A stretch of 64,000 nt of DNA from Actinomycetaceae bacterium zg-1166 (GTDB lineage: Bacteria; Actinomycetota; Actinomycetes; Actinomycetales; Actinomycetaceae). Where the stretch lies: positions 124,001 to 188,000 of the forward strand of contig CP064953.1 of assembly GCA_015679245.1 (NCBI GenBank). The letters run 5' to 3'. The notes under the pieces are model-generated. The model ran no database searches, was not told the DNA's origin, and worked only from the letters and a program-made list of their open reading frames with translations. Positions within the stretch are counted from its first letter, which is position 1; every line of letters starts with the position of its first letter. The position numbers were made by a program, and so were the translations under genes. Shown here in pieces: positions 55,039 through 60,778 of the stretch.

Positions 55039-55289
55039 CCACTCAGTATTTCATGGTGCAGTGTAGGGTTCTCTCCCTGGTGCGCGCTGATCTGCTCCGT
55101 GGCGTGTAGCCCCTGCGCCTACCTTGCTACTTCACAGTTGCGAGAGTGGTAACACGGCTCATCCGGTCTAGGTGCGTCGATGGTTCCTCCTCATTCCCTC
55201 TTCCCTTTCCTATATCTGAACATAAGCACAAGAAGGACGAAGATAAACCCATTCACATCTCCTCTCATAGCAGCGAGGATTGAAAGCGT

Positions 55290-55333: not shown

Positions 55334-56596
55334 ATGACCACACTTGCCATAGTTGGAACCTTCGACACGAAAGGCGAAGAGTTCCGCTTTATTCAGAGCC
55401 TCGCACATGAGCGTGGCCTCGATACACTGATGATCGATACTGGCGTCTTTGAGCCAACCTTTACTCCCGATATTACGAACGCGCAGGTGGCCGAGGCCGC
55501 AGGTGCACGCATTGAAGAGATCGTCGCCAAGGGTGATCGATCTGAAGGAACACATACCCTTGCGACAGGGATTGCGACGTTACTTCCACAGCTTTACAAG
55601 GAAGGGCGTTTTGACGGCGTCATTTCTTTGGGTGGCTCGGGTGGCACGTCGATTGCTACAGCCGGTATGCGCAAACTTCCCCTGGGCGTTCCAAAGGTCA
55701 TGGTTTCAACAATGGCCTCCGGGATGGTGGCGCAGTATGTGGGTACGAGCGATATTGTGATGATCCCTTCGATCGTCGATGTTGCTGGCCTCAATAAGAT
55801 CTCGCGCCTCGTCTTTACCAATGCTGTGTCCGCAGTGGCTGGAATGCTCGGAGCACATCTGGCACCAGGCCATTCGTACGTAGGTACGGGTGAAGCTGGC
55901 GGCGATGCCTCCACCAGCCAGTCCGAGGAACGTCCCCTCATTGCCGCAACGATGTTTGGTGTAACAACCCCATGCATTACGAAAGCAAAGGAATACCTTG
56001 AGAACGCCGGTTACGACGTCATGGTATTCCATGCCACTGGCATAGGCGGGCGCACAATGGAGGATCTTATCGACAACGGTTTCTTCGCCGGAGTCCTCGA
56101 TATCACCACAACCGAGTGGTGCGACGAAGTCGTGGGCGGAGTACTTGCGGCTGGCTCCGAGCGTTGCAGTGCAGCTGGACGGGCGGGAATTCCGCAGGTT
56201 GTATCTGTGGGTGCACTCGATATGGTGAACTTCGGCCCGCGTGAATCGGTGCCAACGCAGTTTGAGGGGCGAAACTTTTACCAGCACAATCCCACAGTGA
56301 CGCTCATGCGCACCACAGGCGAGGAGCTGCGTGAGATCGCTCGGCGTATCGCCGCCAATCTCAACACTGCCACTGGCCCTACGCTCATGCTCATTCCACA
56401 TTTCGGTGTCTCTATGCTCGACTGTGAGGGTGGAGCATTCTGGGATCCAGAGGCACAAGCCAGCCTCGTTGAGGAATTGAGCACCAGACTTGATCCCGCA
56501 CGTGTGCCGATGGAATTCCTCGATGCACACATTAACGACGACGAATTCGCCCTCACGGCTGCGAAGCGTCTGGTCGATTTTATAGAGCAGAAATGA
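55334..56596 (+). CDS. UPF0261 / Tm-1-like ATP-binding domain protein
   Basis: 420 residues from ATG 55334, chosen for the AGGAGG 8 bases upstream. The UPF0261 family is recognised from the start LAIVGTFDTKGEEF, the glycine loop GVISLGGSGGTSIATAGM, STMASGMVAQYVGTSDI, VFHATGIGGRTMEDLI and ERCSAAGRAGIPQVVSVGA. The N-terminal half of tomato Tm-1 is a homologue that binds ATP and blocks tobamovirus replicase. The bacterial function is unknown, though enzyme chemistry is likely. A TIM-barrel gene follows after 185 bases; the same two domains are fused in Tm-1. Confidence 0.92.
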   Translation: MTTLAIVGTFDTKGEEFRFIQSLAHERGLDTLMIDTGVFEPTFTPDITNAQVAEAAGARIEEIVAKGDRSEGTHTLATGIATLLPQLYKEGRFDGVISLGGSGGTSIATAGMRKLPLGVPKVMVSTMASGMVAQYVGTSDIVMIPSIVDVAGLNKISRLVFTNAVSAVAGMLGAHLAPGHSYVGTGEAGGDASTSQSEERPLIAATMFGVTTPCITKAKEYLENAGYDVMVFHATGIGGRTMEDLIDNGFFAGVLDITTTEWCDEVVGGVLAAGSERCSAAGRAGIPQVVSVGALDMVNFGPRESVPTQFEGRNFYQHNPTVTLMRTTGEELREIARRIAANLNTATGPTLMLIPHFGVSMLDCEGGAFWDPEAQASLVEELSTRLDPARVPMEFLDAHINDDEFALTAAKRLVDFIEQK

Positions 56597-56661
56597 AGAA
56601 ACAACGATCACGCGGGAAAGTGGAGGACGTGATCTCTATGTGAACCTGCGGATCGGAAAAA

Positions 56662-56770
56662 TTGACAACTCAGGTGCGGGCTCACCGTACACAAAATGTG
56701 CGGCACCCGCCGAAGAAAACAACAGAACAGTACAGCGGCACAAGCCGCACATATAAGACACATATAAGAA
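56662..56770 (+). promoter_or_regulatory. Regulatory region of the TIM-barrel gene
   Basis: TTGACA at 56662-56667 is a candidate -35. The inverted repeat ATGTGCGGC (56696-56704) / GCCGCACAT (56744-56752) and a tandem repeat ACATATAAGA (56749-56758, 56760-56769) follow. The repeats end just before the ribosome site and are candidates for the AraC-type regulator encoded opposite. Confidence 0.45.
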
Positions 56771-56781
56771 AGGACAGCGCA

Positions 56782-57612
56782 ATGCTGCGTAAGACTCGTT
56801 CCGAAATTCTCGCTGACTTTAAGAAGCAGACCGAAGCTGGCAAGATCCTCGTCGGTGTGGGCGCAGGCACAGGCATTACTGCTAAGTGCTCGGAGAAGGC
56901 CGACGTCGATATGCTCATCATCTACAACTCAGGTCGCTTCCGCATGGCTGGGCGCGGATCGCTCTCTGGAATCCTCTCCTATGGCGATGCCAACAAGATC
57001 GTGCAGGAGATGGGTCAGGAAGTACTCCCAATTGTGCAAAAGACACCCGTGCTTGCTGGTGTCTGTGGCACGGATCCCTTCCGAATCATGGATATTTTCC
57101 TCAAGCAACTCAAGGATCAGGGCTTTAACGGTGTTCAGAACTTCCCAACCGTTGGCCTTATCGACGGTGTTTTCCGCGCAAACCTTGAGGAAACTGGGAT
57201 GGGATACGGCCTCGAAGTGGAGATGATTCGTGAGGCGCATAAGCTTGATATGCTCACCTGCCCTTACGTTTTCGATCCTCAGCAAGCCCGCGATATGGCT
57301 GAGGCTGGTGCTGATATTCTCGTCGCCCATATGGGCTTGACGACGAAGGGTTCCATCGGTGCGGAAACGGCTCTCACTCTTGACGATTGTTGCGAGCGTA
57401 TCCGTGAGATCATCGCTGCTGGGCGCGAGGTGCGCCCCGACATTATGGTGATCTGCCACGGCGGACCGATTGCGGATCCAGAGGATGCGGCCTACGTGAT
57501 CGGAAAGGTGCCTGAACTCGATGGCTTCTTCGGTGCTTCGTCGATTGAACGCCTGGCATCCGAGCGTGGAATGACGACGCAGGCAGCGGCCTTCAAAGCA
57601 ATTTCGAAGTGA
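56782..57612 (+). CDS. PEP-hydrolase-family TIM-barrel enzyme
   Basis: 276 residues from ATG 56782 (GAAAGGA upstream). Matches the PEP_hydrolase / TIM-barrel signal-transduction family: ILVGVGAGTGITAK, LIIYNSGRFRMAGRGSLSG, NFPTVGLIDGVFR, AHMGLTTKGSIGA, and near the end ICHGGPIADPEDA and GFFGASSIERL. The name comes from similarity to phosphoenolpyruvate hydrolase, but the true substrate of this branch is unknown. It corresponds to the C-terminal half of plant Tm-1. It shares orientation with the UPF0261 gene and faces a regulator carrying a second copy of the domain. Confidence 0.92.
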   Translation: MLRKTRSEILADFKKQTEAGKILVGVGAGTGITAKCSEKADVDMLIIYNSGRFRMAGRGSLSGILSYGDANKIVQEMGQEVLPIVQKTPVLAGVCGTDPFRIMDIFLKQLKDQGFNGVQNFPTVGLIDGVFRANLEETGMGYGLEVEMIREAHKLDMLTCPYVFDPQQARDMAEAGADILVAHMGLTTKGSIGAETALTLDDCCERIREIIAAGREVRPDIMVICHGGPIADPEDAAYVIGKVPELDGFFGASSIERLASERGMTTQAAAFKAISK

Positions 57613-57710
57613 GATTTAGTTAAAGTTGCGCCGCCTCACGAAGAATCCGATATGCGACGAGTCGAGTACAACGTGACTGTGTAGGCGTGACTTTGCTCTA
57701 GAGGTATCAA

Positions 57711-57760
57711 CGTGGAGGTGCGGGGAAGATGGATTCATCATGTGCCCCACACCTCCACGT
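57711..57760. terminator. Bidirectional terminator-like hairpin
   Basis: CGTGGAGGTG (57711-57720) pairs with CACCTCCACG (57750-57759), extended by GGGG/CCCC after a bulge. It sits midway between the convergent TIM-barrel and AraC-type genes. Confidence 0.6.
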
Positions 57761-57811
57761 CCAGGTGGAAATCTGGATCGGCAACTGTCGCTGGCAGAAG
57801 TACTCGTCGCG

Positions 57812-59014
57812 TTAGGCGTGTGCCGTAGACGTTGCACGGAAACGAAAAGCTGTGGGAGTCTCGCCCACTGTCTTCTTGAATGTGCGCGAGAACTGCGCTG
57901 GATCAGGGTATCCCACAGATTCAGCGATACTTTTTATCGGGTAGGTTGTGCCGCCTAGAAGTCTTTTCGCAATCTCCATCCTCACCTGGATGAGGTAGCG
58001 TGTGAAAGTGGTTCCCATCTCTGCGGAGAAAATCGTGGATAGACGCGAGGAAGAGATGTGGAGGAGATCGGCTATATCACCGAGGCGAATATCGAGGGCG
58101 TAATTCTCTGCGATATAACTCGTCACCACATCCGCATGATCCGCAGCACTCATAGCTTTCCCTGCCATGCGTGAGAGTACCTTTTCGGTGATGTTGTCAC
58201 CGCCGCTCTTAAAATCAATAGCTGCCTGAAGAATGGCATTCTCGGAAGGAATTCGGTCGAACACAGAACCACCGATATATCCCTGACAGGCTGTGTGCGC
58301 ATAAAGGTAGCGCATTGCTTCCGGGGTGGCGGCTGGCCCCGAATAGATCATGCGGATAACTTCATGCTCCTCGCAAGCAGTGAATATTCCGCGCGCAATG
58401 TCCACCCCTCGCGAGATAGAGATTCCTCGCCCACGCCCAATGAAACCGCCGCGAGTGAGACCCAAGTGTGCACAAAGTATGTGCGCACCTGCTTTCACCA
58501 TCGCTCTTGCCTCGTCGGGATTGCTCGCAAAAGCGAGGGTAAGCATACCGTTCTTGCGTGCCAGGCGAATGGCTTCTACTTCCCGACTGTAGGAGGTACC
58601 TTCTTCCTCAAGAGCCATGCGAAACTTACCATCCACAAGACTCAAGGTGGGGTAATTGACCACCCCGGCAAAGCCGAGTTCACGCAGGTGGGGGATATAG
58701 GTTGAGAGTTCGATTGTCGGATCAGAAGCAAAAAGTCCAAAGAATACGGGAATCTCTCCAGCCATCGGAAGAATTTCCGGCGTGGCAAATTCTTCGACGA
58801 GGGCGTTGGAGTTCCCGTACCCCAGGTAGGAGGCGAGGGAGCCGAGCCCCGCCTGGCGAAAGCGACCAGCTGAGAGGGCAAGAATCATATCGATCCCAGC
58901 CATGCGCGCGAACTTGGCAGTGAGCCCGGAGCCAACAGCAGCACCGATGAGATAGGTATCGGCAGCTGCTCCTTCGCGCAGGTAGCGGAGTGCCTCTTCA
59001 GTATTTTTTCTCAC
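57812..59014 (-). CDS. AraC-type regulator with PEP-hydrolase-like TIM-barrel sensor
   Basis: 400 residues. Residues about 10-275 are a diverged copy of the neighbouring TIM-barrel protein: AAVGSGLTAKFARMAG, LSAGRFRQAGLGSLASYLG, NYPTLSLVDGKFRMALEEEG, AHLGLTRGGFIGR and QGYIGGSVFDRIP. Residues about 295-395 are a double helix-turn-helix AraC domain (IADLLHISSSRLSTIFSAEM, then IAESVGYPDPAQFSRTFKK). The enzyme's CHGGP is YSGPA here, so it probably binds ligand without turnover. GTG 59014 has AGGAGG upstream. It starts 36 bases after the DHA2 exporter gene on the same strand. Confidence 0.9.
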   Translation of the reverse strand: MRKNTEEALRYLREGAAADTYLIGAAVGSGLTAKFARMAGIDMILALSAGRFRQAGLGSLASYLGYGNSNALVEEFATPEILPMAGEIPVFFGLFASDPTIELSTYIPHLRELGFAGVVNYPTLSLVDGKFRMALEEEGTSYSREVEAIRLARKNGMLTLAFASNPDEARAMVKAGAHILCAHLGLTRGGFIGRGRGISISRGVDIARGIFTACEEHEVIRMIYSGPAATPEAMRYLYAHTACQGYIGGSVFDRIPSENAILQAAIDFKSGGDNITEKVLSRMAGKAMSAADHADVVTSYIAENYALDIRLGDIADLLHISSSRLSTIFSAEMGTTFTRYLIQVRMEIAKRLLGGTTYPIKSIAESVGYPDPAQFSRTFKKTVGETPTAFRFRATSTAHA

Positions 59015-59050
59015 TGCACTGCCTCCTACCTCGCACTATACCTTCGTAGC

Positions 59051-60778
<1,728 letters not shown>

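Follow-up and report, generated by a model that had tools for sequence, protein, structure and literature searches.

A PEP_hydrolase barrel fused to an AraC domain as the probable dedicated regulator of a UPF0261-barrel operon in an Actinomycetaceae bacterium

Which signal is read by a regulator whose sensor domain belongs to the same family as the enzyme encoded beside it? This question is raised by three genes of Actinomycetaceae bacterium zg-1166, whose genome (1.92 Mb, one contig) contains two PF09370 genes and one UPF0261 gene in total. On the stretch of 64,000 nucleotides that was analysed as a whole (contig CP064953.1, positions 124,001 to 188,000; below: the window), a UPF0261 gene (55334-56596, forward strand, 420 amino acids (aa)) is followed by a gene for a stand-alone TIM barrel of the PEP_hydrolase family PF09370 (56782-57612, forward strand, 276 aa). 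Convergent to this pair is a gene fusing a second such barrel to an AraC DNA-binding domain (57812-59014, reverse strand). Judged from architecture, neighbourhood, phylogeny, a lost histidine and a predicted operator, as they can be read from the sequence, the fusion probably activates transcription of the UPF0261-barrel operon as its dedicated regulator and has a sensor barrel which is probably dead as an enzyme and would share its ligand with the enzyme barrel.

The three genes had been named in an earlier note on this DNA and all were confirmed by Pfam. The UPF0261 product matches the N and the C domain of its family (205.7 bits, 6.8e-61 and 310.8 bits, 4.8e-93, respectively; cut-off 27 each). 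The stand-alone barrel matches PF09370 along its whole length (413.3 bits, 4.8e-124, cut-off 33.8), starts with ATG at 56782 and contains the motif CHGGP. In the regulator, PF09370 covers aa 9-270 (58205-58990, 6.4e-87), and the AraC DNA-binding domain lies at about aa 290-391 (57842-58147), with the AraC helix-turn-helix (HTH) at residues 314-391 (3e-22). This C-terminus is a double HTH (HTH_18, 79.1 bits; HTH_AraC in two stretches) with fold matches to 3lsg and 6swi. The output domain behind this barrel is AraC instead of a sigma-54 interaction domain. Chance cannot account for these scores, and the same set of three neighbouring genes is seen again in other phyla. The assignment of UPF0261 and stand-alone barrel to the N- and C-terminal halves of plant Tm-1 stands as well, with 3wry (Tm-1 itself) and 2p10 as solved relatives. 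The same UPF0261 and PEP_hydrolase (TBST) halves are described in PMC5028733, which places the pair in bacteria, archaea and fungi and its fused form in plants. Unlike the fused plant protein, the locus studied here has two separate genes and a regulator.

Within the bacterial family of the strain, PF09370 was present in 18 of 213 genomes and the AraC fusion in five (the window, L016, L019, L020 and L022; L and G numbers denote loci and genomes). A scan of named genomes, in which 80 of 221 relatives were kept and fusion counts are lower bounds, gave at least 23 fusion loci, including L077 as a second copy of L020. A phylum sample contained PF09370 in 30 of 396 genomes, one long frame (G513:C214) being left unread. 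At this stage the fusions numbered at least 27 distinct ones, five from the family, 21 from Bacillota and one from the gammaproteobacterium Lonepinella (L083). The UPF0261-barrel pair adjoins 26 of 26 of them, with the UPF0261 start 2.5 kb from the fusion at L078. At the 27th (L082) the contig ends 110 bases past the gene; another contig of this genome (L220) begins just before UPF0261 and has the operator described below. A sample of 398 genomes from the phylum of a Paenibacillus carrier (carrier counted) contained PF09370 in 38. Thirteen stretches of it were read, including every match with a frame of at least 380 aa except the centre's own, plus one stretch of the L082 genome. Three new AraC fusions came from these stretches: L207 and L208 adjoin the pair, L215 does not. 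Five sigma-54 fusions (L209-L213), all next to the pair, were found there as well. Altogether there are at least 30 distinct AraC fusions, mostly from Bacillota, and of the 29 whose surroundings could be read, 28 lie next to the pair. The conserved neighbourhood of PEP_hydrolase-AraC fusions and UPF0261-barrel pairs expected in the earlier note is found in this tabulation, and its view that the regulator belongs with the pair agrees with both neighbourhood and shared operator. Outside the family regulator, UPF0261 and barrel follow in this order on one strand; inside the family the regulator is convergent.

Conserved additional pathway genes around the AraC fusions were rejected: beyond the trio, no cluster of open reading frames (at least 80 aa) occurred in more than three of 27 loci, and those common to three were found in L020, its copy L077 and L022, or were ABC (ATP-binding cassette) ATPases in L078, L095 and L135.

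As the note had stated, the barrel also stands in front of sigma-54 activators, which we confirmed in the loci scanned. Such fusions adjoin UPF0261 and barrel at L046, L097, L098 and L129, too, and in Bacillota they occupy the same place before UPF0261. They resemble the AraC fusion in their position on the sensor side of the barrel tree, in standing beside the pair and in having lost the histidine discussed below. They differ in their output, a sigma-54 AAA activator, and in a promoter which is clearly of the -24/-12 type in three of 13 loci (element with at most 2 mismatches before UPF0261; 0, 2 and 3 of 300 shuffles as good for L212, L129 and L098, respectively). Matches at L210 (6 of 300) and L211 (10 of 300) were weaker, and in eight of the 13 loci the search for a sigma-54 promoter gave nothing convincing. 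In the open-access literature we found no description of a PEP_hydrolase-AraC regulator, which is a variant beside the barrel-sigma-54 form already visible in sequence records.

A motif search before UPF0261 in the AraC loci reached a Gibbs total of 341 versus at most 227 in six shuffled sets, for which fewer starts were used. The matrix obtained from 20 loci outside the family (19 from Bacillota and Lonepinella) reads AACATAAACACAA-n-ACATAAAAACATTTACT, with half-sites 21 bp apart. It detected a site before UPF0261 in all five fusion-bearing family loci, with 0 of 1000 shuffles as high in each (scores: window 21.1, L016 20.4, L020 9.0, L019 8.5, L022 8.0); these loci are partly related, the window and L016 as well as L020 and L022 being close pairs or of the same genus. 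In the window, the predicted operator (55219-55262, forward strand) is a direct repeat of CATAAGCACA (55221-55230) and GATAAACCCA (55242-55251) with a 21-bp period. No other position on either strand of the 64 kb scores as high as this site at 55219 (20.7 when the whole stretch is scanned, 10.3 for the runner-up). The operator is kept in the family even though the regulator gene runs convergently there and lies far away. Fusion genomes beyond the training set beat 300 of 300 shuffles (L207, whose regulator barrel is 90% identical to one of the training set, 27.5; L208 13.0; L220 19.5). In a leave-one-out test of 24 loci, 16 beat 200 of 200 shuffles, L020 all but one, L089 and L090 all but two and L083 all but six. 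Self-similarity at 21 bp, partly built in for training sites, was 6.3 of 10 versus 3.3 in shuffles (maximum 4.1 of 2000); the five family sites alone gave 6.0, the next period 4.6. No operator was detected in 13 fusion-less family loci (from 11 of 13 such genomes) scored with a matrix from 24 loci, family included (L018 lowest with 7 of 200 shuffles as high, the others at least 21). With the outside matrix, 11 of 13 sigma-54 loci had no convincing AraC operator (22 to 154 of 300 shuffles as high).

To train the operator matrix, the core-promoter register was moved upstream, and local shifts of at most 3 bases were allowed. Since its start was picked after the all-locus motif had been seen, the family loci test the matrix independently as regards the letters but not as regards the register chosen. 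A motif search on the 20 outside loci settled on the core promoter and missed the family sites; when coding sequence was included, conserved AraC codons surfaced instead. At L083 the site assigned in training is poor and a better one (22.4) lies at the end of the regulator gene. In the gap scan, L020 owes its top scores to stretches of N that were taken for A, as was checked for one of them.

In the 27 fusion genomes, a pattern written from such sites gave 20 matches in 16 genomes, 14 of them at the pair's own promoter, including 11 of 11 with at most one mismatch; four family genomes had none. The six matches elsewhere all had two mismatches, and a reversed-pattern control gave 15 matches. 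The genome of our locus contains one exact site and three with three mismatches (reversed control: 1). As the six matches elsewhere carry two mismatches each and stay below the control, we propose no further target genes. An operator before the regulator gene itself beat 100 of 100 shuffles only in L084 and L085 among 25 loci examined for autoregulation. Sites resembling catabolite-responsive elements (cre, at most 2 mismatches) occur in 10 of 20 gaps outside the family (shuffles: mean 1.6, at most 5); as they partly overlap the operator, they give only a hint of catabolite control and thereby of a catabolised carbon source.

The position of the operator bears on the direction of regulation. 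Its second half-site is directly followed by the -35 hexamer TTCACA (55252-55257) of a putative weak promoter which we assigned by eye (55252-55280, forward strand), with a 17-bp spacer and GAGGAT (55275-55280) as -10. In most training loci -10 hexamers resembling TATGAT, TAGAAT or TATAAT lie at a near-fixed matching distance (by eye); a plain sigma-70 scan of the window did not find the promoter at 55252-55280. E. coli AraC binds araI1-I2 as two half-sites with a 21-bp period, the second at -35, and a tandem half-site next to the -35 combined with a poor -10 is the usual layout for class II activators. The operator described here has the same period and position, and at sequence level a direct repeat adjoining the -35 of its target is of class II type, whereas the sensor domain is unrelated to that of E. 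coli AraC. Other AraC regulators carry different sensors, some of them DJ-1/PfpI-like domains. In XylR (Xylose operon regulatory protein, 4fe7) the AraC domain stands behind a ligand-binding fold, as it does here, but here the sensor is a TIM barrel of the enzyme family encoded by the target operon. According to the class II logic, the ligand-bound regulator would use its AraC domain to bind the direct repeats, whose period is 21 bp and of which the second touches the -35, and would switch the operon on. Alternatively, the fusion might be a repressor, which occupies the -35 without ligand and is released on ligand binding. A half-site abutting the -35 hexamer could serve a repressor, too; the activator-like combination of tandem half-site and poor -10 makes this unlikely, and so does the shared sensor branch, whose sigma-54 fusions are members of an activator family.

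What the regulator may bind is indicated by its pocket. We searched for columns conserved in at least 95% of 71 core stand-alone barrels. A single column was invariant in 99 of 99 stand-alone barrels and matched in none of 35 regulator barrels, namely His225 of the enzyme (226 when counted from ATG; codon 57457-57459) within CHGGP. The regulators have Tyr here in 27 of 27 AraC barrels and Glu (five) or Tyr (three) in eight sigma-54 barrels. In further loci, 16 of 17 stand-alone barrels have His (all but the decayed one near L215), and three of three AraC and five of five sigma-54 barrels have Tyr. This split between His and Tyr or Glu points to the catalytic residue of the enzyme. The regulator of our locus has Tyr224 instead (codon 58343-58345), the last residue of strand 7 (220-224) in a model with a predicted local distance difference test (pLDDT) score of 83.5 and a predicted template modelling (pTM) score of 0.68; active-site residues of such barrels sit at strand ends. 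Gly227 and Ser252 (enzyme numbers) are retained in 35 of 35 regulators and Gly250 in 34. The nearest fold is 2p10 (Z 35.8), the solved relative of both barrels, followed among others by several phosphate-binding barrels, e.g. indole-glycerol-phosphate synthase (Z about 20), and by a phosphonopyruvate hydrolase (Z 18). As the histidine is lost, the phosphate-loop residues are kept and several of the nearest folds bind phosphate, we infer that the pocket, most of which is retained, still binds a phosphorylated ligand and that catalysis is gone, the barrel probably being a catalytically dead enzyme relative acting as a sensor.

Instead of binding a metabolite, the regulator barrel might form mixed oligomers with the enzyme barrel and read the state of the enzyme. 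The 2p10 entry has six chains, and 23 of 24 searched fusion genomes (21 with AraC, three with sigma-54 fusions) have a single fused barrel accompanied by a single stand-alone one; the remaining genome has an extra stand-alone barrel. Since the regulators retain several pocket-type residues as well as the phosphate loops, ligand binding is favoured and mixed oligomers of this kind appear quite improbable. That the regulator is a trigger enzyme with its catalysis intact, as the many conserved enzyme columns persisting in the regulators might suggest, is very improbable given that His225 is absent from all 35 regulators and from the eight further ones.

According to the earlier note, the regulator incorporates a copy of the enzyme that it watches, a view that is not borne out. 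A broad tree contained 134 barrel domains (27 AraC, eight sigma-54, 99 stand-alone); L077, whose regulator barrel is identical to that of L020, was dropped as a duplicate. In this tree and in a careful, unrooted one of 92 barrels (12 rows, long ones and partners, dropped and other enzymes thinned), the AraC and sigma-54 barrels on one side and the stand-alone barrels on the other are separated by one branch (99/90 in the careful tree), and the AraC barrels form one group (100/98). The sigma-54 barrels were one group in 16% of bootstrap trees. The regulator barrel belongs to a sensor branch in common with the sigma-54 fusions, and a recent local duplication of the neighbouring enzyme gene, although both proteins are of one family and share 38% identity, is hardly credible, being rejected, under the models used, by the trees and by the approximately unbiased (AU) test, in which 25 AraC barrels and 24 partner enzymes forced together were 147 log units worse (p 1.6e-5). 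Four loci of the family, six from Bacillota and that of Lonepinella, 11 in all, form one branch both among the enzymes (100/99) and among the regulator barrels (100/98). This would fit a transfer by which Actinomycetaceae received the cassette, with Bacillota as the probable donor. When the four parts are compared over 26 loci, their distance matrices correlate (r 0.45-0.83; of 999 permutations, no more than 1 is as high), shared species history included.

With respect to the reaction, it is only the name that suggests hydrolysis of phosphoenolpyruvate or phosphonopyruvate by this barrel, whose family we take to be COG5564, and the 2p10 entry is titled putative. In the literature found, no physiological reaction is assigned to the UPF0261-barrel pair. 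The title of 9mpy, the second solved relative of UPF0261, reads 'Saro_1862, a UPF0261 domain protein ... with bound acetovanillone', and acetovanillone catabolism in its species is reported to start with the single-component kinase MarK (PMC13101465). The UPF0261 and PEP_hydrolase families are stated to co-evolve in PMC5028733, and COG5441, the COG of UPF0261, and COG5564 are listed as a co-occurring pair in fungi in PMC8963296. Taken together, bound acetovanillone, the kinase report and the co-occurrence of the families suggest that UPF0261 is a small-molecule kinase and that the stand-alone barrel is an enzyme which converts the phosphorylated product. This phospho-compound would be the likeliest signal, bound by the regulator barrel and the enzyme barrel in common; the substrate at this locus need not be acetovanillone. 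The direction of regulation, the ligand and both enzyme activities are proposed on comparative grounds.

Several points weigh against a dedicated activator of this kind. The genome (G694) of the L215 fusion gave no UPF0261 match; because, in addition, CHGGP is replaced by CCGQQ in the barrel next to the fusion (L215:5489-7665), this locus is probably a decaying copy of the cassette. The set of 11 loci forms no single branch in the UPF0261 or AraC-domain trees, and the -10 of the window (GAGGAT) is weak. With the AraC matrix, two sigma-54 loci score high relative to their own shuffles (L098 7.2, 0 of 300 shuffles; L045 -4.8, 3 of 300), as does L216 (-4.6, 6 of 300), one of five further loci which have no fusion, the other four of these being at 134 of 300 or more. 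Four of the 24 leave-one-out loci (L079, L093, L095, L148) did not stand out. The 9mpy protein is likely, by inference, to be MarK. Finally, the sequence would allow repression as well as activation.

Between the convergent genes lies a strong hairpin with an 11-pair outer stem (57710-57760), possibly a two-way terminator. The region 57613-57760 folds with a z of -4.5 (0 of 200 shuffles as low); the list of the terminator scan does not contain this hairpin. A possible promoter of the regulator, GTGACA-16-TATAGT (59035-59062, reverse strand), comes from a consensus scan, in which such matches were no commoner in the window than in shuffles. The UPF0261-barrel gap (56597-56781) comprises 185 bp, exceeding most gaps of relatives, and its RNA at 56597-56730 has a z of -3.4; differential expression of the two genes is possible.

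UPF0261-barrel pairs were also observed in other surroundings. They stand beside ABC transporter genes in Thermomicrobium and, with sigma-54 fusions, in two rhizobia, and UPF0261 is fused behind an ABC transporter ATPase domain in L102:7687-9981 and L124:7776-9935. At L018:5604-10031, genes for an amidohydrolase and a RuBisCO-like protein adjoin UPF0261 and barrel. In the same bacterial family, UPF0261 also stands in operon-like rows together with two different barrels (L171:5609-8476, L172:5048-8014; G173, G149). Verrucomicrobial barrel-UPF0261 pairs have a divergent AraC-type regulator gene (L101, L107, L108, L119, L128, L139, L146); that of L101, the only one of the seven scanned, has a conventional AraC_binding sensor. 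Short proteins of 195-240 aa consisting of a degenerate partial PEP_hydrolase barrel only are encoded in L045:6057-6644, L046:5984-6664, L120:8031-8621, L150:3384-4031 and L144:2396-3118; those of L045 (checked by Pfam), L046 and L120 are divergent from UPF0261.

We tentatively propose, with some doubt, that pseudoenzymes from an ancient branch of the Tm-1 barrel family serve as an exchangeable metabolite sensor, to which sigma-54 or AraC output is attached with the promoter following suit, that regulator, operator and enzyme pair move across phyla as one cassette and that its signal is a phospho-intermediate made by UPF0261 and consumed by the barrel. The exchange of AraC and sigma-54 would clearly exemplify how output domains are swapped on a common sensor. 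The regulator very likely binds the pair's own ligand, as far as the comparisons allow, and would then be a ready-made biosensor for the natural substrate of the Tm-1 pair. With a dedicated regulator and a defined operator, the discovery of this substrate would become a reporter screen.

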